From a virus, in the IMG/VR virus record IMGVR_UViG_3300031474_000004, positions 1 through 64,000 of that record: a DNA stretch of 64,000 nucleotides, one strand, 5' to 3'. Numbering within the stretch: position 1 is the stretch's first letter; every line of letters begins with the position of its first letter. The position numbers and the translations under genes were made by a program. Below are positions 17,642-60,565 of this stretch, in pieces. The notes under the pieces were generated by a model. That model saw only the letters and a program-made list of their open reading frames with translations. It had not been told where the DNA came from and did no database searches.

Positions 17642-17647
17642 TGATTG

Positions 17648-44245: not shown

Positions 44246-45160
44246 ATGAACACGCTACGCAATTACGTGAGATTGATCCTTTCCGAGAGGATCAGGGCGA
44301 AAGATCCTTCCTCTTCGTCTTCACGTAAGGCAACGTTCAACATGAACGACTTCAAGAAATTGAAGCAAAATGATCCACTAGAAGGAACGTTTTTGAAGTA
44401 CGCGAAACGCAACCTTCAAAGGTTGGGAGAGGGATCATCTCGTGAAGTATTCTTACTTTCATCACAAAAGGTTCTCAAGGTCGCGGTGAACGAAAAAGGT
44501 ATCGCTCAAAACGAAGCCGAGATTGATGTTTATACGAATCCCAAGACTCGACCGATCATATCGAAGGTGTACGATTATGGTTCAGGTTACGAATGGCTCG
44601 TATCTGAACTAGTTCGTGAATTGACGTACGAAAAAATCTGCACTTTGTTGGATCTTGATGGTTCTTGGGACTACATGATCAAGGAACTTATCGTTGATAA
44701 AATGCCAATTGATAAACTTGTCAAGCGATACACGGAAAAAAATTTAAGAGTCAAAGATTCAGGAACTGATGTTCCTGGCTCAGTCGTTGTCGATAAACAT
44801 GGGAACCACGTAGCAGGACCGTTTTTTTCGCCGCCAGGCTGGGAACACGATCGCGGAACGCCCGAAGCATTTAAAGCAATCGATGAAATTAACGTACAAA
44901 ATCCCAAGTTGAAACAATTTCTCATTGCATTGAAACAAACGATGGAAGTGAACGAGCTCGAACGCGGAGACATTCAACCCCAACATTTCGGTAAAAGCGC
45001 TTCGGGCGACATCGTGCTTCTCGATTACGGGTACACGACAACGGTTCTTAAGAATCATTACGGGGGCGGTGATATCAGTTGGGATGATGGTGATGATGAC
45101 GTTGATCCGTCAAATTCGATATCTGGTCGTGAAACCACTCGATCACCCGCGGCAAGTTGA
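44246..45160 (+). CDS. Protein-kinase-like protein with capsid-targeting-type N-terminus
   Basis: 304 aa from ATG 44246. MNTLRNYVRLILSERIRAKD starts with a short helix and L-S-E, an (I/L)xE prohead-protease site. Then a kinase-like fold: LGEGSSREVFLLSSQKVLKV (Gly loop and Lys), EAEIDVY, SELVRELTYEK hinge, ERGDIQPQHFG (HRD loop equivalent) and DIVLLDYGYT (DFG equivalent as DYG). The C-terminus is acidic. If packaged and injected it could phosphorylate host targets at infection. GATAAT at 44231-44236 ends 9 nt before the ATG. Confidence 0.65.
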   Translation: MNTLRNYVRLILSERIRAKDPSSSSSRKATFNMNDFKKLKQNDPLEGTFLKYAKRNLQRLGEGSSREVFLLSSQKVLKVAVNEKGIAQNEAEIDVYTNPKTRPIISKVYDYGSGYEWLVSELVRELTYEKICTLLDLDGSWDYMIKELIVDKMPIDKLVKRYTEKNLRVKDSGTDVPGSVVVDKHGNHVAGPFFSPPGWEHDRGTPEAFKAIDEINVQNPKLKQFLIALKQTMEVNELERGDIQPQHFGKSASGDIVLLDYGYTTTVLKNHYGGGDISWDDGDDDVDPSNSISGRETTRSPAAS

Positions 45161-45180
45161 ACATCAACAACTTAACGTAA

Positions 45181-45186
45181 TACATT
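45181..45186 (+). promoter_or_regulatory. -10 box before the Mre11 gene
   Basis: TACATT ends 7 nt before the ATG at 45194. Confidence 0.4.
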
Positions 45187-45193
45187 AGAAGTA

Positions 45194-45841
45194 ATGCTCA
45201 GATTTGCGACGATTGCGGACGTTCACATCCGCTCGTTAACACGTCATGATGAGATTCGAGAAGTGTTCAACGCTTTCGTTAAAGACGTGAAGGAACACAA
45301 CATCGATCACATTTTCATTGGTGGCGACATCGGTCACAGTAAAACAGCACAATTTTCGGCTGAGTACGTTGATCTCATGGTTGAGCTGATCAACTTGCTT
45401 GGCGATACCGCACCGACCCACATGATCTTGGGAAATCACGACCTGAACGAGAGAAACAAGATCAGACAGGATGTGATCACACCCGTTTTAAACGCGGTCA
45501 AGCACCCAAACGTGCATCTTTACAAGACTAGCGGTGTTTACAGTATCGCAGAAGGTTGCAATTTGTGCGTCTTTAGCATCTTTGACGAGGAGAATTGGAA
45601 AAATGTGGAACCCGTAGAAGGTGACATCAACATCGCTTGTTATCACGGGGGCGTTTCGGGAGCAAGGACTGAAACTGATTGGGAACTCACGGGAGGTCTG
45701 GAATTAGATCATTTTGCTGAATATGATGCAACTTTCCTCGGTGACATCCACAAATTTCAATGGCTGGATCATCGTGATTTTGAAATTGAAATTGACGAGG
45801 ATGAGTTAAAAGATTATCCCGGAGCAATTGTGCTTCCATGA
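45194..45841 (+). CDS. Mre11/gp47-like nuclease, N-terminal catalytic part
   Basis: 215 aa instead of about 340 in T4 gp47. All phosphoesterase motifs are present: ATIADVH, IGGDIGH, LGNHDLN, CYHGG and FLGDIHKFQ. It ends YPGAIVLP, a short version of the YPGS motif that starts the capping domain; the rest of that domain is encoded at the start of the 46049 gene. A PGD-family gene lies between the two halves. Both halves probably assemble with Rad50 for DNA end processing and recombination-dependent replication. Confidence 0.82.
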   Translation: MLRFATIADVHIRSLTRHDEIREVFNAFVKDVKEHNIDHIFIGGDIGHSKTAQFSAEYVDLMVELINLLGDTAPTHMILGNHDLNERNKIRQDVITPVLNAVKHPNVHLYKTSGVYSIAEGCNLCVFSIFDEENWKNVEPVEGDINIACYHGGVSGARTETDWELTGGLELDHFAEYDATFLGDIHKFQWLDHRDFEIEIDEDELKDYPGAIVLP

Positions 45842-46056
45842 AATTTAGTGATCTCAGACCGGGAGATATGTACATCACGTCTGGTTCTACCGTTTATCCT
45901 CAGCATGAATCAGCAACCGTTGTAGCCGTAACTGAGAATCATATAACGTGGTTGATTACGGAAAATAGATTGACAAAGATCTATCGTTTTAAGAATTTCA
46001 ATGATCAACCTTTCGATGAAAAGGGAATCACTTGGTTGAGGGTGAAAAATGTCTAA
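45838..46056 (+). CDS. PGD-motif family protein inserted inside mre11
   Basis: 72 aa. MKFSDLRPGDMYITSG, then strands ATVVAVTENHITWLITE, TKIYRF, GITWLRV. It sits exactly between the N- and C-terminal parts of Mre11, overlapping the first by 4 bases and the second by 8 bases. This is strong evidence that members of this family move as small insertions. Confidence 0.7.
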   Translation: MKFSDLRPGDMYITSGSTVYPQHESATVVAVTENHITWLITENRLTKIYRFKNFNDQPFDEKGITWLRVKNV

Positions 46057-48622
46057 GAAGATTCGAATTCGTATAAACCGACCGGCGATAGGGTATCCCG
46101 GATCGATGCTTCAAAATACCTACTCAGAAGATCTGAAGCATTTTTGGCTGAAATGGGAGTTCAAATCGAGCAACGACTTCACAGTCGTTCCTGTTGAACT
46201 TCCGAATCCAAAGCCATTTTTGACAATCGATTGGAACGGTTCCGTCAATAAAACGGTCGACCAGTTGAAGAACTTCAAGGCTGGTTCAAGGGTTCGTATC
46301 AAGTCTGATGCAAAGATCCCACTTAAGTACTCAACGAAGCTCGTTTCAACGATCAAGAACGAGATGGGAGCATCGGAGGTCATCTTCAAGGAAGAACAGG
46401 CAACCGACATCTCTCGAATCAACATGGGTTCCGTTCAGTTGCTTCGTACGGATCTGAGGAATTCGGACGTATTGTTTCAGCTTTTAAAGGAACATTACAA
46501 GTCATCCGAAATGCATGAGGATGAATGGGTGAAGATCTACGATCTTCTTCGTAAGTACGTCTCGATTCTCACGAGCGAGGATGTGATGAGGAACGTCAAA
46601 TGGTCATTGAGAAGACTTCGCTTCAACAACATGTATTCCTATGGCGAAGATAACACGATCAATTTCGATGCATTGTCGGGCCTCGTAGGTATATTCGGGC
46701 CAAACAGAAGCGGCAAGTCTTCAATTCTCGGAACCCTAATGTACGGGTTGTTCAATGCGACCGATAGAGGTCCAATCAAGAACATGTTGCTGTGCAACAC
46801 TCGTAAGCAATCATGCTCATCAAAGATCGTGATCAAGCTCGGGGGTCGTGATTACCTCGTTGAGCGTTCAACGAACAAGAAGTCGAACAAGCAGGGTGAC
46901 ATCTCCGCCGCGACGAACCTCAGGATTTGGGAACTCATCGATGGAAAACCTGTTGAAAGCACGGGGGAGCAACGTTCAGACACCGAGAAAACGCTGAGAA
47001 AGCTCATCGGAACGTCGGATGATTTTCATTTGATGTCGATATCGACGCAGCGAGATGATAATTCAATCCTCGAACACGGGTCCACGAAAAGACGACAGAT
47101 CATTTCAAGGTTCCTTGACATTGACGTCCTCCAGCAGATCCATGAACTTGCACGTGATGATGTTCGTGAACAAAAAGGTCTCATCAAGAACCTGAACGAG
47201 GATTTGAATGAATCAATAAACGATAGACGTAACGTGTCATCCAATCTCGATCAACAGATTGAACTCAACGTTTCTAATCTCGAAAGTTCACGTGAAAGGT
47301 TGTTCGATCTAAAGACTCAGCTCGCAGCTTTCAAGGGATTCAAGCATGTTTCGATCGAGGAGCTCGAATCACACCGTGAATCGATCGACGAGTTGAACGG
47401 AAAATTATCGAAGGTTGTTTCAAGCATTGAAAAAGCGGGAAGGGACTTACAAGAAACGGATGAAAAAATAGAACGTGTTTCGACGGTTCTTCAGGATTAC
47501 GATCTTGTGACGATGAAGCAACAGCTCGATTCATTCAAGAAGCTGCGTTCAAGCGTCAATTCGATGCTTCAAGCGTACACGAACGAGAACAACTCGTTCG
47601 AACGTAGCAAGAAGACGATCAAGATCCTGCAAGACGTTCCTTGTGGCGATTCGTTTCCAACGTGTAAGTTCATCAAGGATGCTCATGACCTGAAACCAAC
47701 GCTGGACGATCAACGTGATCGAGTAAATTCTTTGAAACGATCGTACGATGAAGCGAATCAATCGCTCGGCGGTATCGATGAAAAAAAGATGGTCGACAAC
47801 GTTTCGAAGGTTGAATCGTTGAAGGAAAAACTGGGACAATTGAAGTTGAACAAGGCTCAGCTCGAAACCCAATTGACAAGGCTCAATCACAACAGGAACG
47901 AGATTCAGCGAACTTTGGACGTTGCGATCAATGAATTCGAGGATCTCGAATCAAGGACCGACAAAAAGAAGAACGATGAACTGACCTCACTTAAATCATT
48001 GATCTTTTCTGCCGAAGCCGGAATATCCGTCTTGGAAAAAGCGAATATCTCTTTGGCAAGACAAAAAGGTAAGATTGAATCCGAGATCGAACGTTTGTTG
48101 AAGGATCAAAAGAGACGAATCGATATCCTTCAAAGGATGAAGTACCACGAGGTGATCGAATCCAGCTTTTCAAAGAATGGAATTCAGGATGCGATCCTCT
48201 CATCAATGCTTCCTGCGATCAATGAAGAGGTTGCAAAGATCCTCAATGGAATCGTGAACTTCACCGTTGAGCTCGAGAAGCTACCGAATGATGATCAAAT
48301 CGACATCTACATAAACTATGGTGATGGTGACAAGAGGGTTCTCGAACTCGGAAGCGGCATGGAAAAGTTCATCAGTTCAATCGTTCTACGAGTTGCATTG
48401 AACAACATCTCCACCTTACCGAAGAGCGATGTGTTCTTCATCGACGAAGGATTCGGGTCGTTGGATGCGAGCAGCGTGGAGGAGTGTTCAACATTGCTTC
48501 AATCTCTGAAGAAGTACTTCAAGACGATCATTGTCATCACACACGTTGACGTGATGAAGGACATCGTCGATTCCACGATTGAGATCACACGAAACGGAAA
48601 GGACTCACATGTCTCGTGTTGA
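46049..48622 (+). CDS. Mre11 capping domain fused to Rad50/gp46-like ATPase
   Basis: 857 aa. Residues 1-170 are the gp47 C-terminal part (RPAIGYPGSMLQNTYSEDLK, HFWLKWEFKS). From residue 180 it is Rad50: VKWSLRRLRFNNMYSYGEDN, Walker A GPNRSGKSS, Q-loop region STQRDDN, long coiled coil, hook CGDSFPTC (C-x6-C rather than CxxC), signature LGSGMEKFISS, Walker B VFFIDEGFGSLD. So one protein carries the nuclease cap and the ATPase, while the catalytic Mre11 part is separate. Confidence 0.85.
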   Translation: MSKKIRIRINRPAIGYPGSMLQNTYSEDLKHFWLKWEFKSSNDFTVVPVELPNPKPFLTIDWNGSVNKTVDQLKNFKAGSRVRIKSDAKIPLKYSTKLVSTIKNEMGASEVIFKEEQATDISRINMGSVQLLRTDLRNSDVLFQLLKEHYKSSEMHEDEWVKIYDLLRKYVSILTSEDVMRNVKWSLRRLRFNNMYSYGEDNTINFDALSGLVGIFGPNRSGKSSILGTLMYGLFNATDRGPIKNMLLCNTRKQSCSSKIVIKLGGRDYLVERSTNKKSNKQGDISAATNLRIWELIDGKPVESTGEQRSDTEKTLRKLIGTSDDFHLMSISTQRDDNSILEHGSTKRRQIISRFLDIDVLQQIHELARDDVREQKGLIKNLNEDLNESINDRRNVSSNLDQQIELNVSNLESSRERLFDLKTQLAAFKGFKHVSIEELESHRESIDELNGKLSKVVSSIEKAGRDLQETDEKIERVSTVLQDYDLVTMKQQLDSFKKLRSSVNSMLQAYTNENNSFERSKKTIKILQDVPCGDSFPTCKFIKDAHDLKPTLDDQRDRVNSLKRSYDEANQSLGGIDEKKMVDNVSKVESLKEKLGQLKLNKAQLETQLTRLNHNRNEIQRTLDVAINEFEDLESRTDKKKNDELTSLKSLIFSAEAGISVLEKANISLARQKGKIESEIERLLKDQKRRIDILQRMKYHEVIESSFSKNGIQDAILSSMLPAINEEVAKILNGIVNFTVELEKLPNDDQIDIYINYGDGDKRVLELGSGMEKFISSIVLRVALNNISTLPKSDVFFIDEGFGSLDASSVEECSTLLQSLKKYFKTIIVITHVDVMKDIVDSTIEITRNGKDSHVSC

Positions 48623-48914
48623 CAAGTTCGAACCGTACCTGAACGATAGATTGATCCTCAAGAAGGAAAATTACGTTTTGATCAAACCGAATCGTGAATC
48701 GAGGTTGATTCCACTCGGTTGTTCGGTATGTGAATTCTTATACAGGACTCACAACGATGAGAAGGCACACGAAACGTACGGGTGTTGTCACAGATGTGCT
48801 GAGGTGTTCGTGTACCCTGATCGAAAACGATGGTCAAAAGGATGGCGACCGAATGAAGATCAGATCAAAAGAGACGTCGAATCACGACAATCTTTATCGA
48901 TCATGATGAAGTAA
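48609..48914 (+). CDS. Conserved zinc-binding phage protein
   Basis: 101 aa from ATG 48609. PLGCSVCEFLYRTHNDEKAH and GCCHRCAEVFVYPDRKRWSK then GWRPNEDQI show two CxxC knuckles and the W-x-GWRP motif seen in a conserved protein of T4-like environmental phages. It overlaps the Rad50 stop. Function unknown. Confidence 0.7.
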   Translation: MSRVDKFEPYLNDRLILKKENYVLIKPNRESRLIPLGCSVCEFLYRTHNDEKAHETYGCCHRCAEVFVYPDRKRWSKGWRPNEDQIKRDVESRQSLSIMMK

Positions 48915-48915
48915 A

Positions 48916-49500
48916 ATGCGTAATTACGATTGGTTCAAAAAAACTTACGATTATATCGTTTACGATGTTCGAAATAACTTGCTGATTGCGGATTTCGAAG
49001 TTCATCATATTTTGCCGCGCTCTTTGGGTGGTTTGGATTCTCTCGAAAACAGAGTTAGATTAACGTATCGTCAACATTTCATTTGTCATTGGTTACTTTG
49101 GAAAATGTCGACCGGGAAAGATCGTGAAAAGATGGCACTTGCGTTCAAGTTCATGAAAGAAGGCCAACAAGGAAAATTTGTTGTATTGAATTCAATAACG
49201 TTCGCCAGAGTGAAGAAGGAAGCTTCACTTTTTCAGAGCAATCGACAAATTGGGATTAAAAAGCCGTATTTGAATGGAAATCAATTCGCAAGACACAAGC
49301 ATACTCCCGAACAAAATTTGAGAAAAAGTAAACGTCAAATTGGTGGTAAAAGAAAACCCGAAACGATTGAGAGGATGAAAATTGCACAAAGTAAATCCGA
49401 AACTAAAAATCAAATTAGAGAACAATTGAAACGATATTGGGCAAAATGGCGCGTAGATAACAATCGTAAACCTCGTATCGGTGATGAAAAATATTTATGA
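48916..49500 (+). CDS. HNH homing endonuclease
   Basis: 194 aa. FEVHHILPRSLGGLDSLENR, VRLTYRQHFICHWLL is the HNH core of the same type as 25627 and 36104. A basic NUMOD-like tail follows (KHTPEQNLRKSKRQIGGKRK). Here the frame is intact. Its end overlaps the next gene by up to 17 bases. Inserted between the recombination and head modules. Confidence 0.78.
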   Translation: MRNYDWFKKTYDYIVYDVRNNLLIADFEVHHILPRSLGGLDSLENRVRLTYRQHFICHWLLWKMSTGKDREKMALAFKFMKEGQQGKFVVLNSITFARVKKEASLFQSNRQIGIKKPYLNGNQFARHKHTPEQNLRKSKRQIGGKRKPETIERMKIAQSKSETKNQIREQLKRYWAKWRVDNNRKPRIGDEKYL

Positions 49501-49966
49501 TATGGACATTGATCAATTATTAAAGGATGAAGAACTTGAGTTTGATCCTTTAGCGAATAAACTTGATAAAGGAGTTGATTCTGAGAATCAAGATATTGAC
49601 TATTCAGCTCTCGCGCAAAGTTTTGATACGTCGTGGGGGAGATCTTCTACGCCGAAAACGGCTCAATTCTCCGTAAAATTCCAGCTCGATGGTGCGAATC
49701 GAATGATCGCAAGTTACTGTGCAATCGTCAATTTTGCAAGCGAACGTGACATGATTGAGCAAAAGCGAAGGTACGCATCTGAATCAACTGATATCTTGAA
49801 GGCTCACGTCAAGTTCATTAAGGACCGTTACAAGGGACTTTGTGGAAAGACGCTCAGTGTCGACGAGATGTTCACAAGTGATTCCGTTGAATGTATCTCA
49901 ATGAACTTTTATAATCCTCGAAAAGTTGCTTATTTTCGCAAAAAAACCGCCTATCAAATCGGGTAA
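49484..49966 (+). CDS. Conserved protein upstream of terminase
   Basis: 160 aa. An acidic N-terminus (MDIDQLLKDEELEFDPLANK) precedes a beta/helical domain: FSVKFQLDGANRMIASYCAI, VNFASERDMIEQKRRYASES, and MNFYNPRKVAYFRKKTAYQI. Similar proteins appear next to terminase in T4-like environmental phages; a packaging or virion role is likely but unproved. ATG 49502 is an alternative start. Confidence 0.65.
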   Translation: MKNIYDMDIDQLLKDEELEFDPLANKLDKGVDSENQDIDYSALAQSFDTSWGRSSTPKTAQFSVKFQLDGANRMIASYCAIVNFASERDMIEQKRRYASESTDILKAHVKFIKDRYKGLCGKTLSVDEMFTSDSVECISMNFYNPRKVAYFRKKTAYQIG

Positions 49967-49971
49967 CGTAA

Positions 49972-50238
49972 ATGAAAATTTCACTGAAACAGCTCAAGTC
50001 AATCATTAAGGAAGAAATCTCATACAAGGACGTTGGAGACGAACCCGAAGTTTTAGATATGATTTCGTCATTAATCAACGTTGTTGTTGATCAACCTCAA
50101 TTTCGAATCTTAGCAAAACCAGATCCGAGAGGTCCCAATCCAAAAATTGCAAAATTTCGACAAAAACTGTACAATGATATCGCACAATTGATAGATGATT
50201 CAATCAATCAGAACTTTAACGGCCCGTATTCAAAGTGA
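49972..50238 (+). CDS. Small protein with capsid-targeting-type N-terminus
   Basis: 88 aa. MKISLKQLKSIIKEEISYKD: the first 15 residues match the tag shared with 52559, 53581 and 58068, with IKE as the (I/L)xE protease site. The rest (SSLINVVVDQPQFRILAKPD) is unrecognised. Predicted internal head protein. Confidence 0.6.
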   Translation: MKISLKQLKSIIKEEISYKDVGDEPEVLDMISSLINVVVDQPQFRILAKPDPRGPNPKIAKFRQKLYNDIAQLIDDSINQNFNGPYSK

Positions 50239-50258
50239 ATTACTTACCTAGTTAATAG

Positions 50259-51860
50259 GTGTTATCAGCGAACGATAAGAGAAATGAAATCATCCGGTGC
50301 GGCCGCGACCCGAAGTATTTCATAAAGCGTTATGTTTTCATCCAGCACCCCACAAAGGGGCGAATTAAGTTCACAACATATCCCTATCAGGACGACGTTG
50401 TTGATGCACTTGAAAATCATCGTCACAACATTGTCCTAAAATCTCGCCAGCTTGGCTTGTCAACGATTGCAGCCGCGTACTCATTGTGGATGGCGGTATT
50501 TCACAAGGACAAGAACATCATTGTCATTGCAACGAAGCTTGAAACGGCTCAGAACTTCGTTAAAAAGGTAAAGATTGCGCTTTTATCATTACCACCATGG
50601 CTAGTTCTTCCGAAACACGATGATAAAGCAACGGCACTTAATTTCGATAACGGATCACGAGTCATTGCAATTCCCGCTTCTGATGATGCGGGACGTTCTG
50701 AGGCTATTTCTCTATTGATCGTTGATGAATGTGCATTTATCCGCAACTTCGATACCCTTTGGACAGGACTCTCACCAACCATTTCCACCGGTGGAAATGC
50801 ATTCATACTTTCATCACCCAATGGTGTAGGCGGGCAATTTTACAAGTTATGGATCGGTGCTGAAGCAGGACAGAATAACTTCAATCCCATAAAATTGCCT
50901 TGGACGGTTCATCCCGAACATGATGAAAAATGGTTCAAGGAAGAGACAAAAGATCTTACTCGTAAAAAGGTAGCTCAGGAATACATGTGTGACTTCCTCG
51001 CATCAGGTGATACCTTCCTGCAAGTCGAAGATCTCGATTGGATGAAATCGAAGGTTCGTGAACCATTGCTAAAGACGGGATTTGACCGTAACGTGTGGAT
51101 ATGGGCTCATCCCGAATCTGAAAAACGATACGTCATCTCAGCCGACATTGCACGCGGCGATTCGCAGGATTTTTCAGCATTCCACGTCATCGATGCTGAT
51201 GACGGTCAACTCGTCGCTGAGTACATGGGCAAGGCACCTCCCGAGGTGATGGGACAATTGATGGACGAGTACGGTCGTAAGTACAATATCGCCCTTGCGA
51301 TCCCTGAAAATAACACTTTCGGTTACATGACCGCAATGTACTTGAAAGCGAATGGGTACCCTCGTATGTACTACAAGGATCATAAAGGTGATCCATTCAA
51401 CTTTGTACCAACCGATGACATGTTGCCGGGGTTCTCCACACAAACTCATTCACGTCGAAACATTCTCACAAAATTCGAAGAGTTGATCAGAAACAAGATG
51501 ATCAATTGTCCTTCGTCACGCCTCGTTCAACAATTACAAGCGTTCGTCTGGCAGAACGCGAAGGCTCAAGCGTTGAAAGATAGTCATGACGACTTGATCA
51601 TCAGTATTGCAATTGGCATGTACGTCGTTGGAGGAGAACTTCAACAGGATTGCAGTCGGACGGATTTGACGGTGGCATTGCTGAATGCGACATCGCGAAT
51701 GTCGAGAAGTGCAGATGAACTTCCAGGGCTGCGAGATCTTCCACCACCGATGAACCCTCAAATGATCACGACCACTTTTCAGCAAGTGAGGTCGGGAGAA
51801 CGCGGAAGGCAATTAGTTCAAACGTTGCATCCCATGTACAATTGGCTTGTGGATAAATAA
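50259..51860 (+). CDS. Terminase large subunit (gp17-like)
   Basis: 533 aa, GTG start. RNEIIRCGRDPKYFIKRYVF, HPTKGRIKFTTYPYQDD is the gp17 N-terminus. Walker A variant LKSRQLGLST, Walker B LLIVDECAF, coupling motif SSPNG. Nuclease domain ISADIARGDSQDF (first Asp) and the later DSHDDLIIS (acidic cluster). Packages DNA into the prohead through the portal. A GGATAAATAAC sequence at the stop resembles a T4 late-promoter TATAAATA core for the next genes. Confidence 0.93.
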   Translation: MLSANDKRNEIIRCGRDPKYFIKRYVFIQHPTKGRIKFTTYPYQDDVVDALENHRHNIVLKSRQLGLSTIAAAYSLWMAVFHKDKNIIVIATKLETAQNFVKKVKIALLSLPPWLVLPKHDDKATALNFDNGSRVIAIPASDDAGRSEAISLLIVDECAFIRNFDTLWTGLSPTISTGGNAFILSSPNGVGGQFYKLWIGAEAGQNNFNPIKLPWTVHPEHDEKWFKEETKDLTRKKVAQEYMCDFLASGDTFLQVEDLDWMKSKVREPLLKTGFDRNVWIWAHPESEKRYVISADIARGDSQDFSAFHVIDADDGQLVAEYMGKAPPEVMGQLMDEYGRKYNIALAIPENNTFGYMTAMYLKANGYPRMYYKDHKGDPFNFVPTDDMLPGFSTQTHSRRNILTKFEELIRNKMINCPSSRLVQQLQAFVWQNAKAQALKDSHDDLIISIAIGMYVVGGELQQDCSRTDLTVALLNATSRMSRSADELPGLRDLPPPMNPQMITTTFQQVRSGERGRQLVQTLHPMYNWLVDK

Positions 51861-51911
51861 CACAAAGTAAAATCTTTCAAAGGATGACGTTTTTGTGGAT
51901 ACGTAATCTTG

Positions 51912-52562
51912 ATGAAATCGAAAACAATTTCTTACAAGATCTCCGAGGATCGTCTCAAGGAAATAATCGCCGAGGAATTGCAACGTAAGTTGCAGCTCGC
52001 GGAGAACCCTGATTCACTCACTGAAGACATCGATCACGAAGGTGCCGCAACGGTCTCTAAGGCTTCTTCGAAGCTTCTGAAAGCTCTTGCATCGTTTAAA
52101 GAAGATGCTAATGGCGGAATGCAAAGTGCTACGACGCCGCATCTCGATGCACTCGTGTCGACGCTTGAAGCGATGGTACAGAATCCCGCGAACTACACTG
52201 ATAAGGTAAAGGTTGAACCGAAGCGAGTGAAGCTTCGTAAGGTTGAAGAAACCTTGCGCTCAAAATTCGATTCAAAAAAGCTTGCGGAATCTCGCTATAA
52301 CTGGAAACCTGAGGCGATTGAGTTCATGAAGGATCTTCTTCGTACGAAGACTAAAACGGTTCCTGTGGGTTCAAATCAAACGAAGATCGCTGATACACTT
52401 CAGGACGTGAACATGATTCGGATGAAGAAACATTTCAAGGGTCCGTCGGGTCTCGTTGTCGTGTACGAACCGACACAAGAAGGGCTGGAAGAATTCGACA
52501 AGTACAGAACTTCATCGATGACGTCAAAGAAACCACAGGTTGAAAAGGTAAGCGAACAATGA
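51912..52562 (+). CDS. Helical protein with capsid-targeting-type N-terminus
   Basis: 216 aa from ATG 51912. MKSKTISYKISEDRLKEIIA then EEL: IAE is a candidate protease site at about residue 20. The body is helical with Lys/Glu repeats (SSKLLKALASFKEDANGGMQ). Overlaps the next tagged gene by 4 bases. Position between terminase and portal suits a scaffold or internal head protein. Confidence 0.6.
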   Translation: MKSKTISYKISEDRLKEIIAEELQRKLQLAENPDSLTEDIDHEGAATVSKASSKLLKALASFKEDANGGMQSATTPHLDALVSTLEAMVQNPANYTDKVKVEPKRVKLRKVEETLRSKFDSKKLAESRYNWKPEAIEFMKDLLRTKTKTVPVGSNQTKIADTLQDVNMIRMKKHFKGPSGLVVVYEPTQEGLEEFDKYRTSSMTSKKPQVEKVSEQ

Positions 52563-53536
52563 AAATCACACTCAATGAATTAAGGCGAATTATTCGTGAA
52601 GAAAGCTCTCGTGGATGGGGTTCGAAACGACGCAAAGGTAAGGATCCCGCACAGTACGATGCAAACCGTGAAATAAACCGCGATGCGGATTGGGCGGTGG
52701 ATCAGCTCAAATCAAAGGGTGGGATGTACGATGATTTGAATGATCGTGGTAATCAAAGAACGAGATTCAATAAATTGAGTCGTCAAGTCGATATGCCGTC
52801 ACATCCAAATCGGGGTCTTCCTGGCCACGATGATGGTTGCAAGAACTGCGGCATGAAAGTTTCATTGCTTCCCAATGGTAAATGTGAAGATTGCGATTTC
52901 ATGAACAATGAATCACGATCATGGGATGGTTACGAGCCTCGCTCATTATCAGATGGTGATGAAACATGCGAACTTTGTGGTTGCGAGGATGTTTCATTGA
53001 CACCCAACGGTTTATGTGATGATTGTGATGACGCTGAAAACGGTCTAACCGAGGCGAAAGAAACTGAGACGACAATTGAAGCCACCGAGGAAGAAATCGA
53101 CAAGCGAATCTCATCCATGGACGCTGATACGATTGTCGACAAGGATTACATCGATTCACATACGGGCGAAGTTTACCTTGAAATTGGTGATCGAGCGGGG
53201 GACTCTCAATTTCATCCTTCGTACGTTCCAAAAACGTATCGCGGCGAGAGCCCCGTCGATGTCTCATTTGATGATGATGATTTTCCCGATTACGAGGAAG
53301 AGGATCATGAATCGAACCTAGTATACGATACGTTCGTATCTCAGGTTGATAAGTTCGTTGCAGACCTTGATCTGTCAGAACACGGTGCTGGCCCGGAAGA
53401 TACTGCTCCCGAATACGCTCGTGTGTTCTTACACATGCATCCCGAATGGAATGATAACAAGAAGCTCGGAATGAGCAGGCGACAGATCATCGATTACATC
53501 GCTAACTTAGCATTCGAAAAGTATGGAAACCGCTGA
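52559..53536 (+). CDS. Zinc-ribbon protein with capsid-targeting-type N-terminus
   Basis: 325 aa. MKITLNELRRIIREESSRGW carries the shared tag (IRE). Two near-identical zinc ribbons: CKNCGMKVSLLPNGKCEDCD and CELCGCEDVSLTPNGLCDDC, each CxxC...CxxC. The rest is acidic. If injected, it could act on host nucleic acid or RNA polymerase; that is inference. Confidence 0.62.
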   Translation: MKITLNELRRIIREESSRGWGSKRRKGKDPAQYDANREINRDADWAVDQLKSKGGMYDDLNDRGNQRTRFNKLSRQVDMPSHPNRGLPGHDDGCKNCGMKVSLLPNGKCEDCDFMNNESRSWDGYEPRSLSDGDETCELCGCEDVSLTPNGLCDDCDDAENGLTEAKETETTIEATEEEIDKRISSMDADTIVDKDYIDSHTGEVYLEIGDRAGDSQFHPSYVPKTYRGESPVDVSFDDDDFPDYEEEDHESNLVYDTFVSQVDKFVADLDLSEHGAGPEDTAPEYARVFLHMHPEWNDNKKLGMSRRQIIDYIANLAFEKYGNR

Positions 53537-53580
53537 TACAAGGTCAGCGATAGAAAGATCACGTCTCGGGAGAGAATAAT

Positions 53581-53793
53581 ATGAAACTATCATTAAAACA
53601 ATTAAGAAACCTGATCAACGAAGAGATTAAATCAAAGAGCGGAGGGGTTCACCTTTCAACACTCGAATCAATCAATCCTCGTGCATACGAAGGATGGATT
53701 GAAATGCTCGTTGAAGATTGTAGTGATGAATTCATTGTTAACTCAAAGAAGGAAATTCGCGTCAAGACTCGTAATGGTGTTGGGAACCACTAA
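53581..53793 (+). CDS. Small protein with capsid-targeting-type N-terminus
   Basis: 70 aa. MKLSLKQLRNLINEEIKSKS has the shared tag (INE). The body LESINPRAYEGWIEMLVEDC is unrecognised. GGGAGA lies about 8 nt upstream, a Shine-Dalgarno-like start. Confidence 0.6.
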   Translation: MKLSLKQLRNLINEEIKSKSGGVHLSTLESINPRAYEGWIEMLVEDCSDEFIVNSKKEIRVKTRNGVGNH

Positions 53794-53892
53794 AAGGTCA
53801 CGGAAATGAGAAACCTTAACGTCCAAGTAGATTGACATAAGATTTAGAACGATAAAGCAGTAAAAAGCTTCATCTCTTAATAGGGAAGCAAG

Positions 53893-55218
53893 ATGGCAAA
53901 CAAGCAATTAAAAGGATCAGAATCGCCCGAGAAGTTCTTTAAAAGAATGACTCGTATCTTCAAGAGCGGCGTTCAGGTCAAGCGAAAGATTCGTGCTCAA
54001 GATACCGCCGTCGTCGTTGCCGATAAGACGAAATCGTCTGGAACGTTGCTGTTTCAGAAGTCGTTCTCTCCAACGTACGCTTCAATCACGAGCAATGCTT
54101 ACAACATCGCTGAGCGTCAAGTTCGTTACCAGGATTTTCAGCAGATGGAACAGACTGCTGAGATCGCTGCTGCCTTGGATCTATGGGCGGATGAATCTTC
54201 AAGTCCTGATGAACACGGGCGAGCTTTGCACATCTTTTCTGACAACGAGAAGATCAAGCAGGTTCTTGATGACCTGTTCTACAATCGATTGAACATCGAA
54301 TTCAACCTTAGAAGTTGGGTTCGATCATGTTGCAAGTTCGGTGACTTTTTTCTATTGAATGACGTGCATCCTACTGAGGGTGTCGTTCATGCGTACCCAA
54401 TTCCAGTCAATGAGATCGAACGCGAGGAAGGGTACGACCGCGATGATCCAATGGCGGTTCGCTTTCGCTGGGTCTCGCTTGGTAATAGGATCCTACAGAA
54501 CTGGGAAGTATCTCATTTCAGGTTGCTAGGAAATGATTCGTTCCTGCCATATGGTTGCTCGGTCATTGAAGCAGCAAGACGTGTGTGGCGTCAATTGATC
54601 CTCATTGAGGATGCGATGCTTGTCTACCGTGTCACAAGGGCACCCGAACGTCGAGTGTTCTACATCGATGTCGGTAACCTCCCAGCGAACGACATTCCTG
54701 CGTACGTTGAAGCTCAAAAGCAAGCGCTTCGAATGAATCAGGTGCTTGATTCACAGACGAGCCGGGTTGATCTTCGTTATAATCCACTTCCAGTACATAA
54801 GGATACACCAATTCCATTACTTGATGGAACGACGTTGACGATTGAGAATCTTTCGAACAAAATGAAGGAGAATTCCAATTGGACACCTTGGGTTTACTCG
54901 ATACAAGACAAGTCGCTTCGTATTGTTCCAGGTAAGGTCACCTGGTGCGATAGGAATTACGTTGCGAAGAAGCTGGTGAAGGTTTGGCTTGACAACGATT
55001 CGTACGTTCTCACCGCTCCAGAACACCCATTTGTGCTGAGGGATGGATCAAGCAAGAGAGCTGATGAGTTGGTGGTGGGTCAGGCTTTGATGCCATTTTA
55101 CAGGGAACTAAGTGTTTTTAAGGAAAAAGTTGATGGTACAGATGATTTAGACGGATATGAAAAAATTTATGATCCAAAAAACTCAAAGATTCGTTTATAC
55201 ACACCGTCGTGTTGCTGA
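53893..55218 (+). CDS. Portal protein (gp20-like), N-terminal extein plus first half of intein
   Basis: 441 codons. Residues 1-299 are a gp20-type portal (VRYQDFQQMEQTAEIAAALD, WEVSHFRLLGNDSFLPYGCS, RVFYIDVGNLP, SRVDLRYNPL). From codon 54790 the intein begins: HKDTPIPLLDGTTLTIENLS, then block B LTAPEHPFVLRDGS. The frame breaks in the A6 at 55176-55181; removing one A joins YDPKTQRFVYTHRRVAEILS to the next ORF. Confidence 0.85.
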   Translation: MANKQLKGSESPEKFFKRMTRIFKSGVQVKRKIRAQDTAVVVADKTKSSGTLLFQKSFSPTYASITSNAYNIAERQVRYQDFQQMEQTAEIAAALDLWADESSSPDEHGRALHIFSDNEKIKQVLDDLFYNRLNIEFNLRSWVRSCCKFGDFFLLNDVHPTEGVVHAYPIPVNEIEREEGYDRDDPMAVRFRWVSLGNRILQNWEVSHFRLLGNDSFLPYGCSVIEAARRVWRQLILIEDAMLVYRVTRAPERRVFYIDVGNLPANDIPAYVEAQKQALRMNQVLDSQTSRVDLRYNPLPVHKDTPIPLLDGTTLTIENLSNKMKENSNWTPWVYSIQDKSLRIVPGKVTWCDRNYVAKKLVKVWLDNDSYVLTAPEHPFVLRDGSSKRADELVVGQALMPFYRELSVFKEKVDGTDDLDGYEKIYDPKNSKIRLYTPSCC

Positions 55219-55963
55219 AATTTTATCTCAACCAATAACCTTACCCGAAGGAAATAATAATTGGGTAACTCATCATGTTGATTTTAACAGGTTAAATAAC
55301 GATCCTTCGAATTTATTGAGAATGGGAAATGTAGATCACTGGTATTTACATGCGTCTGAAATTACACGATACAATAAATCTGATCTTAAGAAAGAACGAA
55401 CATCAAAGAACAACATTGAACGAAATTCAGTTGGTGCCATGTCTTGGTACAACGGTTCGGATCTTCACAAGTCTCATAATGAGAATCGTAAGATCGGTCA
55501 ATTGAAAGATTGGGGAGATCAAGAAAAGAAAACTCAACGAAAGTTGAACATGCAATGGAAAATTCCGAACGAGATGATCGAGAAGATCAGTGATCTCATT
55601 CGAAAGGATCCAAAAATTTCTCGGGTTAAAATTCACGAAGAGATCAAGAATGATCAAGAATTGATGAACGCATTGATGTCGATTCAAACGCCTGCAAGAG
55701 ATGTTTCAAAGTTCAGTTATCAAGGCTGGATGTGCGAATTTCAACGAAGAGGTCAAGGTAATGGATTTACTCAAATTCGTGAAGCTGTGTTGAATTACAA
55801 GAATCACAAGGTTTCTAAGATTGAATTCTTGGACGTTGACGGCGAAGACGTCTATTGCATGACCGTTGTTGGTTCCGCCGGTGAAGACGATAGACACAAT
55901 TTTATGGTCCTCGGGTTGAATGAGGATGGATCTCAATCAGATTCTGGTGTTTCATTATGGAAC
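54790..55963 (+). other. Intein in the portal gene, with internal HNH endonuclease
   Basis: The exteins rejoin as RYNPL plus SVDEDYFIPIRGS, a normal gp20 order. The element is 1174 nt, that is 391 codons plus one base, matching the extra A at 55176-55181. N-terminal and B blocks, an HNH domain (WVTHHVDFNRLNNDPSNLLR), and C-terminal blocks F (VYCMTVVG...HNFMVLG) and G (ending in Asn before Ser+1) are all present. The first intein residue would be Pro (or Val), not Cys or Ser, and block F carries Cys in the usual Asp position, as in class 3 inteins. Confidence 0.75.
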
Positions 55964-57193
55964 AGTGTAGACGAAGATTATTTCATTCCTATTCGTGGAA
56001 GCGACACAGGTACCAAGATCGACACACTCGCTGCGGGGCAGAATACAGGAACCGTTGAAGACGTTGCTTACATTCAAAAGAAACTGTTCGCAGCCCTCAA
56101 GATTCCAAAGGCTTACCTTGGTTACGAAGAAGGTCTGAGTTCTAAGAGCACGTTGGCACAGATGGACATTCGATTCTCTCGTTCAGTCTCCGTAATTCAA
56201 CGCACATTCATTGCGGAACTGAATAAACTCGCAATCATTCACTTGTTCACGCTCGGATTTCAGAACGAGGATCTTGCTAACTTCACGTTGCACTTGTCTA
56301 ATCCGTCAACCGTCGCGGAGCAACAAAAGCTCGAACTTTGGCGGACCAGATTCGAAATTGGGGGTTCGTTACCCGAAGGTATGGGAACGAAGCAATTCGT
56401 TTACAAGACAATCTGGGGTCTCAATGACGATGAGATCGACCAGATCAACAACGACCGTGTCAAGGAAACCCTTGTGGATGCCACAATCGCTGCGATGGCA
56501 GAAGGTGGAGAAGCTTCCGGCCCCGGAGGCGGTGGAGGTGGTGGCGGGGGAGCACCTGCAGGTGGAGGATTCGATCTTGATGCCGGTGGCGAGGATGAGG
56601 ACATCTTTAGCGATGACGATGCAGGTGGAAGCGCGGATGATTCTGGTGGTGAGGATGAGATCCCTGACGAGGAGAACGCAGGTCCCGAACCTCTCGAGGA
56701 TGAGGATCCCGATTTGGAATTATTGACATCGAGCGATGATCAGGATGATCCCGAGACGTTCAAGATTCCTTCAATGAGGGATTCACCCGTGAAGGTTGCA
56801 AAGCAACTGCAGAAATCGCTTTACAACAGATCACGTCATCGTACACATGGTCCATCAAAGACTCACATGCCCGACTTTCTAGGCATGGTGAACAACAAAC
56901 GTCGCGAAGATACAATGAACGACCCGTACGATACGAATGCAATGAAGGCACTTATCACGAATCCGTTCGGTGAATCAATTCGCAGGCCAAATGCGATATT
57001 GACGAATGATATCATGAGTGCGTTGAACAACATGAAACGTGAACACGATTCCGATCGTGTCGCAAAAGGTGGTACGTTGTTGTTGAATGAAGGTGATGAA
57101 GGTGTCGAAATTGAACTTGACGACTCGACGTCTGATGACGATGAACTATCGTTGCAAGAACAAGTATTCCATAATGAAAGAGAAGAAGAATAA
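55157..57193 (+). CDS. Second half of intein plus portal protein C-terminal extein
   Basis: 678 codons; the first about 269 are intein (HNH and blocks F/G), the rest portal (SVDEDYFIPIRGSDTGTKID, AALKIPKAYLGYEEGLSSKS, LNKLAIIHLFTLGF). The portal tail has a long Gly-rich and acidic stretch (GPGGGGGGGGGAPAGGGFDL, then DDD/EEE-rich), unusual for gp20, which may be a flexible linker inside the capsid. The ATG at 55157 is not a real start. Confidence 0.82.
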   Translation: MKKFMIQKTQRFVYTHRRVAEILSQPITLPEGNNNWVTHHVDFNRLNNDPSNLLRMGNVDHWYLHASEITRYNKSDLKKERTSKNNIERNSVGAMSWYNGSDLHKSHNENRKIGQLKDWGDQEKKTQRKLNMQWKIPNEMIEKISDLIRKDPKISRVKIHEEIKNDQELMNALMSIQTPARDVSKFSYQGWMCEFQRRGQGNGFTQIREAVLNYKNHKVSKIEFLDVDGEDVYCMTVVGSAGEDDRHNFMVLGLNEDGSQSDSGVSLWNSVDEDYFIPIRGSDTGTKIDTLAAGQNTGTVEDVAYIQKKLFAALKIPKAYLGYEEGLSSKSTLAQMDIRFSRSVSVIQRTFIAELNKLAIIHLFTLGFQNEDLANFTLHLSNPSTVAEQQKLELWRTRFEIGGSLPEGMGTKQFVYKTIWGLNDDEIDQINNDRVKETLVDATIAAMAEGGEASGPGGGGGGGGGAPAGGGFDLDAGGEDEDIFSDDDAGGSADDSGGEDEIPDEENAGPEPLEDEDPDLELLTSSDDQDDPETFKIPSMRDSPVKVAKQLQKSLYNRSRHRTHGPSKTHMPDFLGMVNNKRREDTMNDPYDTNAMKALITNPFGESIRRPNAILTNDIMSALNNMKREHDSDRVAKGGTLLLNEGDEGVEIELDDSTSDDDELSLQEQVFHNEREEE

Positions 57194-57195
57194 TT

Positions 57196-58071
57196 ATGAG
57201 CAACGTCATGACATCGTCAAAACATAACAAGCGCAGAAACGTTCTTCTCGTATACGAGTTCCTGACTCGCCACGTCTCAGCGGGTCTTGTCGAAGGCAAC
57301 AATGCTAAGTCTTCCAAGGCATTAAAAATACTGAAAAAGTCATTCAAACAAGGAACCGAACTTTACAATGAGTTCAGGGTGATGAATGCTCTTGCTAAGA
57401 CAACCGTCACATCAGAGGCTGTTGCCTGCTCGATCATGAATGAAGCAAAAGTTGCTGTGAAAAAACACGATGTCGCAAAGCTCGACCGCGAAAAGTCTCA
57501 CCTGATCAGGAACATCAACCACTCGTTGAACGATGCAACGTTCTTTGATCAACACGTTAGCGAGTACAAGACGTACGCGACGATGCAGGTACTCTTTAAC
57601 GAGTGGCGAAACAAGAATCCCGACATTGCGACGCTTGCGTCCCACGAGGATTCACTTGTCAAATGGTTGACGAAAGAGAAAACTGAGACGGGCGAATCAA
57701 CGCTTTCCGAGAATTCACCCGGTACGAATCGTTTGCTGATGAAGATCATGATGACAAAGCTGAACGAGAAGTACTCTGGAACGTTATCGTCCGAGCAAAA
57801 GGATCTAATTCGCGATTACGTTTGGTCAACATCAACGGATGATCCAGAACGCATTCGTGTCAAGCTAAACGAGGTGAAGTCGCAACTATCAACGTCAATC
57901 GGTGCTTGCATCTCCGAGAATTCCGGTAACGAGCACATGTTGAATCAATTGAACGATGTTCGAACGAAACTGATCAATGAGGATGTTTCTGAGATCAACG
58001 ATGGTATCGTGACTCGATTCATGCAATACCTGAAACTCAATGATGAGTTTAACACAAAGGACGAAAAATGA
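57196..58071 (+). CDS. Conserved head-module protein
   Basis: 291 aa, helical throughout. NKRRNVLLVYEFLTRHVSAG near the start, and regions rich in Asn/Lys/Glu. It lies between portal and protease, where T4 has core genes gp67/gp68, but I see no specific similarity to them. It may be a core or connector-associated protein. Coupled (ATGA) to the next gene. Confidence 0.65.
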   Translation: MSNVMTSSKHNKRRNVLLVYEFLTRHVSAGLVEGNNAKSSKALKILKKSFKQGTELYNEFRVMNALAKTTVTSEAVACSIMNEAKVAVKKHDVAKLDREKSHLIRNINHSLNDATFFDQHVSEYKTYATMQVLFNEWRNKNPDIATLASHEDSLVKWLTKEKTETGESTLSENSPGTNRLLMKIMMTKLNEKYSGTLSSEQKDLIRDYVWSTSTDDPERIRVKLNEVKSQLSTSIGACISENSGNEHMLNQLNDVRTKLINEDVSEINDGIVTRFMQYLKLNDEFNTKDEK

Positions 58072-58304
58072 AGATTGAACAATTAAGACGTCAGATTCGT
58101 AAAATCATCATCACTGAGGATCATCGTTCCGCCGCAACGGTTCCTCCAAAGTTTGCAAGCAGCGAGCTCGACGATGATGCTCCCGGAAGTCGACCTGAAC
58201 TCGATCGTGAGGAACTCCTGAGAAAAGCAAAGAAATGCCGGACAGAGGCAAAACGGTTACTCGCTCAGGCTGAAGAATACGAACATCTCGCGAAGAAGGC
58301 TTGA
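58068..58304 (+). CDS. Small protein with capsid-targeting-type N-terminus
   Basis: 78 aa. MKIEQLRRQIRKIIITEDHR: helix then ITE. The C-terminus is a Lys/Arg/Glu helix (LLRKAKKCRTEAKRLLAQAE) resembling small scaffold/core proteins. Predicted prohead core or internal protein. Confidence 0.62.
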   Translation: MKIEQLRRQIRKIIITEDHRSAATVPPKFASSELDDDAPGSRPELDREELLRKAKKCRTEAKRLLAQAEEYEHLAKKA

Positions 58305-58311
58305 TAAGACA

Positions 58312-58710
58312 ATGAACGGATCGAATCTTTTGCGTAAATTCATTTGTGAAGCAATCAGCGACAGCGTTCGTGAACGTGCGAACGGATTCATTGACGAGGC
58401 TGTTCAACTTTCGAACGACATCGCGGAAGGTGACAAACATTCTATCAAGCAACTTCAGCACGTTGCAAAGGAAATGGAAAGCTTGACGAGCTTTTTCAAG
58501 CGAAACGATGAATTGATGAACACGGCATTCAATCGTTTGCTCGAACAGGTGAACAAGATGGTGAAGATGACGAGCTTTTGGAATCGTCCACTTGCGATTG
58601 GAAAGCAAGCGTACTTTGAGAAGTTGAACGATCAAGCTGCGAACATCGAACACGAAGCATCGATCACGAAACATTTAATGGAGAAGGTGAAGAAACACAA
58701 GGTCTGGTGA
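58312..58710 (+). CDS. Helical core/internal-type protein with candidate targeting site
   Basis: 132 aa. MNGSNLLRKFICEAISDSVR: ICE followed by Ala is a good T4-type cleavage site, close to the IPIII form FIAE-A. The body is helical and basic. Directly upstream of the protease gene. Confidence 0.62.
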   Translation: MNGSNLLRKFICEAISDSVRERANGFIDEAVQLSNDIAEGDKHSIKQLQHVAKEMESLTSFFKRNDELMNTAFNRLLEQVNKMVKMTSFWNRPLAIGKQAYFEKLNDQAANIEHEASITKHLMEKVKKHKVW

Positions 58711-58767: not shown

Positions 58768-59370
58768 ATGAACGAGCAACGGATCATCACATCATACGAG
58801 GATTTCACCCCCGAAGTTATCACAGAAGCCATTACGGGAACTGATAGAAAAAAGATGATTCTTAAGGGAATTCTTCAGCGTTCGGATAGTGTCAACCAGA
58901 ACGGCAGGATCTATACGAGAGCGATACTTGAGCGCGAGATCAGGAATTACCAGAAGTTCATTCTTGAAAATCGAGCATTGGGAGAACTTGATCATCCGTC
59001 CGAAAGTGTTGTTGAACTTAAGAATGTTTCGCACATCGTGCGTAAAGCTGAGATGGATGACAAGGGAGTCGTTACCGGTTTGATTGAATTGTTAGACACC
59101 CCTTGCGGGAAGATTGCACAGAGCTTGGTCGAAAGCGGTGTAAAAATTGGCATCTCATCACGTGGAGTGGGGTCAACAACAAAGAAAGGGGACTATCAAG
59201 AGGTCTCTTCCGACTACATTCTCATATGTTTTGACCTCGTCGTAGACCCAAGTACCCCCAATGCGTTCATGATCCCAGAAGGTAGAAAAATTTCTACAAA
59301 GGAATATGAAAAAATTCTAACTCGTTCTGATCGCCTCTCTAGGCTGATGAACGAGATTCTGATCAAGTGA
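58768..59370 (+). CDS. Prohead core protease (T4 gp21-like, family S77)
   Basis: 200 aa. KMILKGILQRSDSVNQNGRI, LGELDHPSESVVELKNVSHI (catalytic His), ISSRGVGS (catalytic Ser) and YILICFDLVVDPSTPNAFM are gp21 hallmarks. The N-terminus has VITEAIT, a self-cleavage type site (ITE-A). It processes scaffold, capsid and internal proteins at (I/L)xE sites, which ties it to the tagged proteins in this window. Confidence 0.9.
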   Translation: MNEQRIITSYEDFTPEVITEAITGTDRKKMILKGILQRSDSVNQNGRIYTRAILEREIRNYQKFILENRALGELDHPSESVVELKNVSHIVRKAEMDDKGVVTGLIELLDTPCGKIAQSLVESGVKIGISSRGVGSTTKKGDYQEVSSDYILICFDLVVDPSTPNAFMIPEGRKISTKEYEKILTRSDRLSRLMNEILIK

Positions 59371-60055: not shown

Positions 60056-60565
60056 TCACACGTGCAGGATCGTGAACGGCGGACGAACTGCCGCGTTGTT
60101 GATACATGAAACTTCAAGTGCCTGTTTAATTCTTGCCTCAGCATTCTTGATGCTTCCGTTCGAATGCATCGCACCCATTGCAAGATCTGCACCGGATCCC
60201 ATTGCATCGAAACCTTCTCGTGCTTCAGCAACTTGGTAATCCCCGTGAATTCCGAACAACTTTCCAGCGTGACCGACGAGAATGTCGGGCTGGAGATTAT
60301 CTTCCTTCAAGCAGGAACGTACGGAATCTACGAATTCGTTCACCAAGTACGTTGAAAGGTTACCTCCCTTGAACTTCGGAATCACCAATCGGTGTTGGAT
60401 CAACTGACCCATCCTGAAGCTACCGCAGAATCCAAAAATGAAGCCATCACGAACGAACACCTTCTTGTCATTTCGTGAGCGTTGTAGCATGTTGGAACTC
60501 GTTCCAGCACTGTCGCCACCAATGAAAACTTTACCCTTGCTTTCGAGCCCAATGATACAAGTCAT
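60056..60565 (-). CDS. HslV/proteasome-like Ntn-hydrolase protease
   Basis: 169 aa. MTCIIGLESKGKVFIGGDSA: Thr2 would become the N-terminal nucleophile after Met removal, followed by the GxxxxGGDS strand of HslV/proteasome beta subunits; Gly-rich GFDAMGSGADLAMGAMHSNG matches the FxAIGSGxxxAxGAL motif of the family. No HslU-like ATPase is seen in this window. It may act with a host unfoldase or by itself. An extended -10 (TGGTATCAT) precedes it. Confidence 0.72.
   Translation of the reverse strand: MTCIIGLESKGKVFIGGDSAGTSSNMLQRSRNDKKVFVRDGFIFGFCGSFRMGQLIQHRLVIPKFKGGNLSTYLVNEFVDSVRSCLKEDNLQPDILVGHAGKLFGIHGDYQVAEAREGFDAMGSGADLAMGAMHSNGSIKNAEARIKQALEVSCINNAAVRPPFTILHV

Follow-up and report, generated by a model that had tools for sequence, protein, structure and literature searches.

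Why should several otherwise dissimilar proteins of one uncultured virus begin with nearly the same short peptide? The question is raised by a stretch of 64,000 nucleotides (positions 1 to 64,000 of the IMG/VR record IMGVR_UViG_3300031474_000004, hereafter the window), in which a preliminary description had pointed to seven N-termini that place an (I/L)xE site behind a short basic helix, and had proposed that these leaders are cut by a protease of the phage T4 gp21 type and that the proteins are carried in the head and injected. All seven are present at their starts. Those at 49972, 52559 and 53581 (proteins are named here by their start positions) are strong, near-identical tags with the glutamate at residue 14, that of the kinase-like protein at 44246 has its glutamate at residue 14 as well, and those at 51912, 58068 and 58312 are looser, with the glutamate at residues 22, 17 and 13, respectively. 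The reading that we prefer, with a probability of roughly 0.78, is that this common leader represents an extended version of the capsid-targeting propeptides known from T4.

By analogy with T4, the tag would form a basic helix, roughly 13 residues long (MK(I/L)(T/S)(K/L)xQL(K/R)xII(K/R)), that docks the protein on the prohead core during head building. A protease of the S77 family would then cut after E14 of IxE↓(E/A), the arrow marking a presumed cleavage position here and below, and, where a second site is present, again after an (I/L/V)xE located 4 to 13 residues further on. This cleavage would leave the body free in the head beside the DNA. Because most tagged proteins are small and mutually unrelated, many of them are likely to be cargo that would be delivered into the next host, and a few encoded next to the protease probably belong to the core and would be cut up.

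The window is part of a record of 78,338 bases (G000). Two further records, G001 (124 kb) and G002 (38 kb), encode a protease 100% identical to that of the window at 58768; the compared stretches of the three records are 99.96 to 100% identical, and the first 918 bases of the window agree with G001 at 918 of 918 positions. The three records are one virus. The strong tag was defined as MK(I/L)xxxxL(K/R)x(I/L/V)IxE and scanned for in DNA with the pattern P, ATGAARMTNNNNNNNNNNNNNYTNMRNNNNNTHATHNNNGAR, which reads in residues as MK, one of the I/L/M type, four free positions, one of the L type, one of the K/R type, one free position, I/L/V/F, I, any residue and E. The pattern is conservative, as the tag at 53581 escapes it (codon 11 is CTG). 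It matches forward four times in G000, eight times in G001 and five times in G002, and its backwards-read form has no match. By hand, ten strong tags were counted over the records (49972, 52559, 53581, 76350 and 77659 in G000; 1093, 7555, 7736 and 8366 in G001; 37520 in G002), along with five looser or other leaders (51912, 58068, 58312, 44246 and 65613), so that the genome-wide search goes beyond the seven N-termini first listed. Two of the starts carry an alternative codon just ahead of them, the ATG of 51912 lying one codon past a TTG and that of 44246 one codon past a GTG, and a stretch resembling a ribosome-binding site precedes only some of the tagged starts.

The wider occurrence of the tag was read from tag-selected sets (80 loci; 25 contigs of at least 60 kb), protease-selected sets (80 loci; 17 contigs of at least 60 kb, the virus of the window included) and a random control (28 IMG/VR contigs of at least 50 kb, 2,999,384 bases, drawn from 160 listed loci); the random and protease-selected contig sets are of limited size, and there is some dependence among loci and among contigs (G004 and G019 share tag stretches). 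The shared peptide belongs to protein starts: 88 N-terminal tags stand against 6 at 6990 internal methionines in the protease-selected loci, and 272 against 10 at 4505 in the tag-selected loci, where the tag itself was used for selection. As a guard against circularity, leaders were picked by residues 1-9 alone, and matches to the scan pattern were removed in the tag-selected loci. The ending proved nearly invariant: all 96 leaders chosen in this way have I, V or L at residue 12, and 91 have E at residue 14, where three have D and two K; residue 13 is variable, and there is little conservation from residue 17 on. Of 58 tags in the protease-selected loci, 52 have E at residue 14, five Q and one S, counts that are non-independent owing to one repeated family, and the 1.38 Mb of random-contig loci contained a single half-tag, which lacks the motif.

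The motif of the head protease was deduced from the capsid propeptide ends of relatives. In all 56 of their capsid proteins, a set that counts near-copies, the conserved leader block closes with (V/L/I/M)L(K/R)E, the next residue usually being S, Q or A, and the 20 capsid copies taken from 18 tag-selected contigs all close in the same way. This column aligns with E65 in the FLTE of T4 gp23, the propeptide of which is given as 65 residues in the accessible text of one source (PMC5694885). The tag thus ends, as read from the sequence, in the same hydrophobic-x-E motif as the capsid leader, and this match is a stronger argument than the co-occurrence with the S77 protease described below. Furthermore, 148 of the 231 strong tags have a second [ILV]xE within residues 16-27, versus 225 of 1442 equal windows taken from the bodies. 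Second sites occur in seven of the ten strong tags of this virus, some of them spelled exactly like the capsid site (VLKE↓S at 77659, LLKE↓A at 7555 of G001). In the family of 51912, for which 20 of 31 matches were aligned, the glutamate of the second site is present in 20 of 20, after I, L or V in 18 and after M in two, and the first site is absent in three of the 20. Separately, the records G006 and G017 carry the major capsid protein gene in two tandem copies with the same propeptide end.

The gp21-like protease proposed at 58768 was confirmed by matches to Pfam Peptidase_S77 (E 1.4e-21) and to the PHROG head maturation protease (E 8.9e-47). An [ILV]xE(S/T/A) occurs within the first 45 residues of the protease in 51 of 62 distinct relatives, a count for which no background was taken. 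S77 was found in 19 of the 25 tag-selected contigs and in 18 of 18 of those with a gp23-type capsid gene; the six contigs without S77 look like fragments without a head module, because all six also lack the capsid gene. Among the random contigs, five of 28 have S77 (four over the cut-off), and the tag occurs in one, which bears S77, and in none of the 23 without it. Up to 18 matches of pattern P were counted per contig, and an uncultured phage of 484 kb, which also has S77 matches, holds three; because P was found in 10 of the 17 protease-selected contigs, the tag marks only part of the S77 phages. Its restriction to viruses was read from a strict scan form, MK(I/L/M)TKxQL followed by two residues of the K/R type and IIxEE, which occurs in at least 120 stretches of IMG/VR with 1 to 5 matches each (80 loci listed). 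The prokaryote genome collection holds eight such stretches on five contigs, all in metagenome-assembled genomes, where the S77 of one assembly lies on a contig of 305,838 bases, as long as the tagged contig, which looks like a misbinned phage, and that of another on a contig of a different length. In the Microcystis phage Mel-JY01 (L455), the best cultured match of the protease, a gene annotated as ribosomal protein S21 (13122-13349) was observed between the head protease and the capsid gene.

Taken as a comparison, these results lend good support to the earlier proposal of a T4-type leader cut at (I/L)xE by a gp21-like protease (E14, the capsid propeptide end, the restriction to S77 phages and the unrelated bodies all agree), docking on the core, cutting, packaging and injection being the steps that we infer.

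Another explanation is that all tagged proteins are core or scaffold parts of the prohead that are destroyed by the protease and not injected. It takes its force from the genes around the protease, which, with the kinase-like gene, are as follows.

44246..45160, + strand: protein-kinase-like protein with a leader of a second type, MNTLRNYVRLILSE↓R (conserved residues, fold comparison).
49972..50238, + strand: 88-amino-acid protein with the strong tag MKISLKQLKSIIKE↓E; neither a PHROG family nor an above-cut-off Pfam family was matched.
50259..51860, + strand: terminase large subunit, the anchor of the head module (Pfam and PHROG scans).
51912..52562, + strand: conserved late protein between terminase and portal, with the looser leader EIIAE and then a second site, SLTE (31 matches, itself and near-copies counted).
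52559..53536, + strand: 325-amino-acid protein with the strong tag MKITLNELRRIIRE↓E and two CxxC...CxxC knuckles (weak zinc-ribbon matches, 14 tagged proteins scanned).
53581..53793, + strand: 70-amino-acid protein with the strong tag MKLSLKQLRNLINE↓E (read from the sequence).
53893..57193, + strand: T4-type portal protein with an intein-like interruption (Portal_T4 on both sides, weak Intein_splicing match).
57196..58071, + strand: untagged 291-amino-acid protein behind the portal, conserved in the clade (82 matches, itself counted).
58068..58304, + strand: 78-amino-acid protein with the leader MKIEQLRRQIRKIIITE, probable prohead core protein (position and size of T4 gp67).
58312..58710, + strand: 132-amino-acid protein with the leader MNGSNLLRKFICE↓A, probable prohead core protein (position and size of T4 gp68).
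58768..59370, + strand: gp21-type prohead protease, the presumed cutter, with VITE↓A in its N-terminus (Peptidase_S77 match over residues 23-171).

The order portal, 291 amino acids, 78 amino acids (58068), 132 amino acids (58312) and protease recalls that of T4, which is portal, gp67 (80 amino acids), gp68 (141 amino acids) and protease. Because of this gp67/gp68-like place and size, 58068 and 58312 are probably prohead core proteins rather than injected cargo, so that the earlier view of all seven proteins as an injected set probably does not hold for these two. Both genes were judged by hand, the gene caller having replaced them by a longer antisense frame, and Pfam and PHROGs scans gave no likeness to the gp22, gp24, gp67 or gp68 families, a direct comparison with these not having been run. 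Relatives likewise have 36 tagged open reading frames (ORFs) of 60-130 amino acids past the protease, of which 34 begin 0.5-1.1 kb beyond its end, with net charges of -2 to +17, mostly about +1; the bodies elsewhere are mostly acidic, which also fits a role in the core. In the antisense block just past the protease of the window lies a small protein (60056-60565, - strand) whose N-terminus resembles a proteasome subunit (E 0.00047, below cut-off).

Against a destruction of all tagged proteins stand the many matches on single contigs, commonly in arrays at a distance from the head module, as in G017, where tags lie at 48-57 kb and 285-286 kb and the protease at 171 kb. The bodies also differ widely, a few of them being enzyme-like (kinase-like, zeta-toxin-like). 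From the 231 strong tags, which lie in 77 tag-selected loci, 223 bodies of at least 30 residues were obtained, and these fall into 175 single-linkage BLAST families, 149 of them singletons, with the largest, of 18 members, possibly chained by low complexity; the ten tagged genes of one locus (L170) each have a different body. The median length is 106 amino acids, cut ORFs included. Scans of the tagged bodies with Pfam, PHROGs and PADLOC gave almost no functions: 80 of the 90 longest yielded 12 Pfam families once each at E up to 0.01 (e.g., DUF6321, FliG_C and zeta-toxin/AAA), and nearly all PHROGs matches listed are of unknown function. In addition, no family named after the T4 internal proteins IPI to IPIII turned up in general scans of the tagged proteins, a direct comparison with the bodies of these proteins not having been run. 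Four of the ten strongly tagged bodies of the virus (52559, 1093 and 7555 of G001, and 37520 of G002) have zinc-knuckle-like cysteines by eye; the double zinc-ribbon protein of the preliminary description is the one at 52559, where the knuckles are seen in the sequence and the Pfam matches are weak, and for which a search of IMG/VR returned 100% identical copies only. On balance, we consider it rather unlikely that every tagged protein is a core part. The tag may mark entry into the prohead in general, and injection is likelier for the scattered, variable tagged proteins.

An uncut helix that docks proteins on a different structure, be it scaffold, portal, neck or tail, with the glutamate as part of the docking surface, would account for the basic character of the leader (its first 13 residues have a median net charge of +4) and its helical form in the structure model of 51912 (residues 12-31), for the glutamine at residue 14 of five of the 58 tags in the protease-selected loci and for the location of some tagged genes within the late head module. 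The helical moment of single tags exceeds that of shuffled ones, the differences being singly not significant (fractions 0.035 to 0.27). However, E14 is the most fixed of the positions not used for selection and stands in the I/V/L-x-E order of the capsid cut site, and more than half of the strong tags have a further site of like form. An uncut helix is therefore improbable.

Even less credit is due to a remnant of gene duplication, or a conserved control element in DNA or RNA, with no role in targeting. Tandem arrays do occur, and the tags at 7555 and 7736 of G001 are nearly identical in DNA; nevertheless, the bodies within an array are mostly unrelated, and the tag codons differ synonymously within a locus. 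For codon 8, 162 pairs of tags within a locus are identical, 164 differ synonymously and 36 nonsynonymously, and because the codons vary in this way it is the peptide that is kept. We regard such an origin as very improbable. Chance, in the sense that short basic starts with IxE are common (76% of the windows of 22 residues in the protease core contain [ILVMF]xE), can be set aside, as the reversed pattern has no match in 70 records and the forward pattern has one in the 28 random contigs.

Several observations weigh against a capsid-targeting propeptide and are collected here. The cut site of the virus's own capsid protein was not seen, as a profile built from eight capsid proteins had no match in G000-G002; for the same reason the capsid gene probably lies outside these records (a Pfam Gp23 search was uninformative, with no match even in controls). 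Pattern P was found in none of the nine cultured T4-like phages tested, and a tblastn search of the bare tag against cultured phages, too blunt a test, gave one match at E 6 and no other. S77 is absent from six of the 25 tag-selected contigs, and was found in two of the four tagged prokaryote assemblies, on the tagged contig itself in one. Conversely, S77 occurs without P in seven of the 17 protease-selected contigs and in four of the five S77-bearing random contigs, and the association of tag and S77 could come from common descent alone. The three strong tags of the window have no second site. The bodies are mostly acidic (74% of 231), versus the basic ones of T4 IPII and IPIII. Finally, counts of [ILVMF]xE at the protease ends have no excess over the protease core and tell nothing.

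The propeptide reading gains from comparison with known capsid-targeting sequences, whose features recur here as a shared leader of 10-20 residues on unrelated proteins, a hydrophobic-x-E end and an S77 protease in the same genome. The comparison with the T4 internal protein leaders, suggested from the outset, reveals the same plan in different letters. As in IPI, IPII and IPIII, a short leader starting with MK and ending in hydrophobic-x-E precedes unrelated bodies, and a gp21-type protease is encoded in the genome. Used as controls, the T4 leaders read MKTYQEFIAE (IPII and IPIII), MAKINELLRE (gp24) and MLKEQLIAE (gp22), the start of gp24 resembling the second half of the tag. Unlike the T4 proteins, with E10, three genes and basic bodies, the present ones have E14, a basic leader, a frequent second site, up to 18 matches per contig and mostly acidic bodies. 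According to the accessible text of PMC9026906, the first ten residues of IPIII suffice as a capsid-targeting sequence, positions 4 and 7 mattering most for targeting and 8 and 10 for processing, and an aspartate at position 10 blocks cutting and keeps targeting; in the present tags aspartate takes residue 14 in the three of 96 noted above. At least ten internal proteins are reported over T4-related phages in the part of PMC12373910 that was available.

In the phages SPN3US and phiKZ, as described in the accessible sections of PMC5694885, inner-head proteins lose their N-terminal leaders to the head protease, and the first 15 residues of gp53 and gp54 are identical. Unlike here, several of those propeptides exceed 100 residues, the motif is AxE or SxE, and the bodies of gp53 and gp54 are paralogues. 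For phage P1, the available portion of PMC9024508 states that the N-terminal 30 residues of DarB suffice to bring a reporter to the capsid; it reports no consensus for the Dar N-termini, in contrast to the shared leader found here. A literature search, with subscription papers and preprints outside its scope, returned no paper with any of six tag peptides and none that describes this tag in its title or opening abstract lines.

The kinase-like protein at 44246 was already named in the preliminary description, and this assignment is backed by conserved residues and fold comparison. A glycine loop, a nucleotide-binding lysine, a helix-C glutamate, a catalytic aspartate, a metal-binding aspartate and the kinase topology were all found, and G63, S65, R66, K78, E92, D242 and LDYG (259-262) are invariant in nine of nine aligned sequences. 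The structure model has a mean predicted local distance difference test (pLDDT) score of 60.6 and a predicted template modelling (pTM) score of 0.59, so it speaks at the level of fold only. Its best fold match has Z 9.5 over 155 aligned residues with a root-mean-square deviation of 5.1, and the matches listed comprise protein kinases, aminoglycoside and related kinases, RIO2, PRPK and SAICAR synthetases, the last of which we take to belong to the same fold group as kinases. A Pfam scan of the protein gave no kinase family; the model and the conserved residues support a kinase-like fold. In the model, with low confidence, the leader is a helix (2-13) followed by a disordered linker, and it lies within the conserved region of the family. 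Homologues occur in IMG/VR, and a paralogue whose leader is similar is found in the same record at 65613-66302. In L002, the second kinase-like gene was read at 2054-2803 (65553-66302 of the record) from a GTG start, with the leader MNALKLYVQNVLNERIR of the same type. A second leader type may exist, to judge from these sequences and from LREYIRELLTEE in L121.

Other genes of the window were observed in passing. The portal gene (53893..57193) runs in two frames, the frame change falling within the intein-like stretch, and forms a single frame of 1099 amino acids in the two sister records (L003 and L004). A Fringe-like glycosyltransferase, unexpected in a phage, is encoded at 40504-41376 (+ strand; Pfam E 1e-9). 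Probable homing-type endonucleases are scattered at 17645-18649, 19944-21032, 48916-49500 and 60814-62502, as judged from DUF7487, from a TnsA-like N-terminus plus NUMOD3 and, for the last two, by look only, with no Pfam match. At 24322-25569 (+ strand) a collagen-like repeat (26.7 bits, just below the cut-off) is followed by what appears by eye to be a glycosidase-like domain.

Phage proteins that are injected at the onset of infection are best known from phages of E. coli. The sequences lean slightly toward the view that uncultured large T4-like phages run a general delivery route, in which an interchangeable leader, often with two cut sites, would carry at least ten unrelated, swappable proteins per virus into the host together with the DNA. 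If this is true, the leader alone points to unknown families of injected proteins, considerably more than a hundred of them, with kinase-like and zinc-knuckle ones included. The T4 proteins Ip2 and Ip3 block restriction enzymes, as stated in the accessible text of PMC12373910. A leader that can be read from sequence would turn many "hypothetical" genes of uncultured phages into candidate injected effectors and counter-defence proteins, and it would provide a modular tag with which proteins could be loaded into the heads of large phages.

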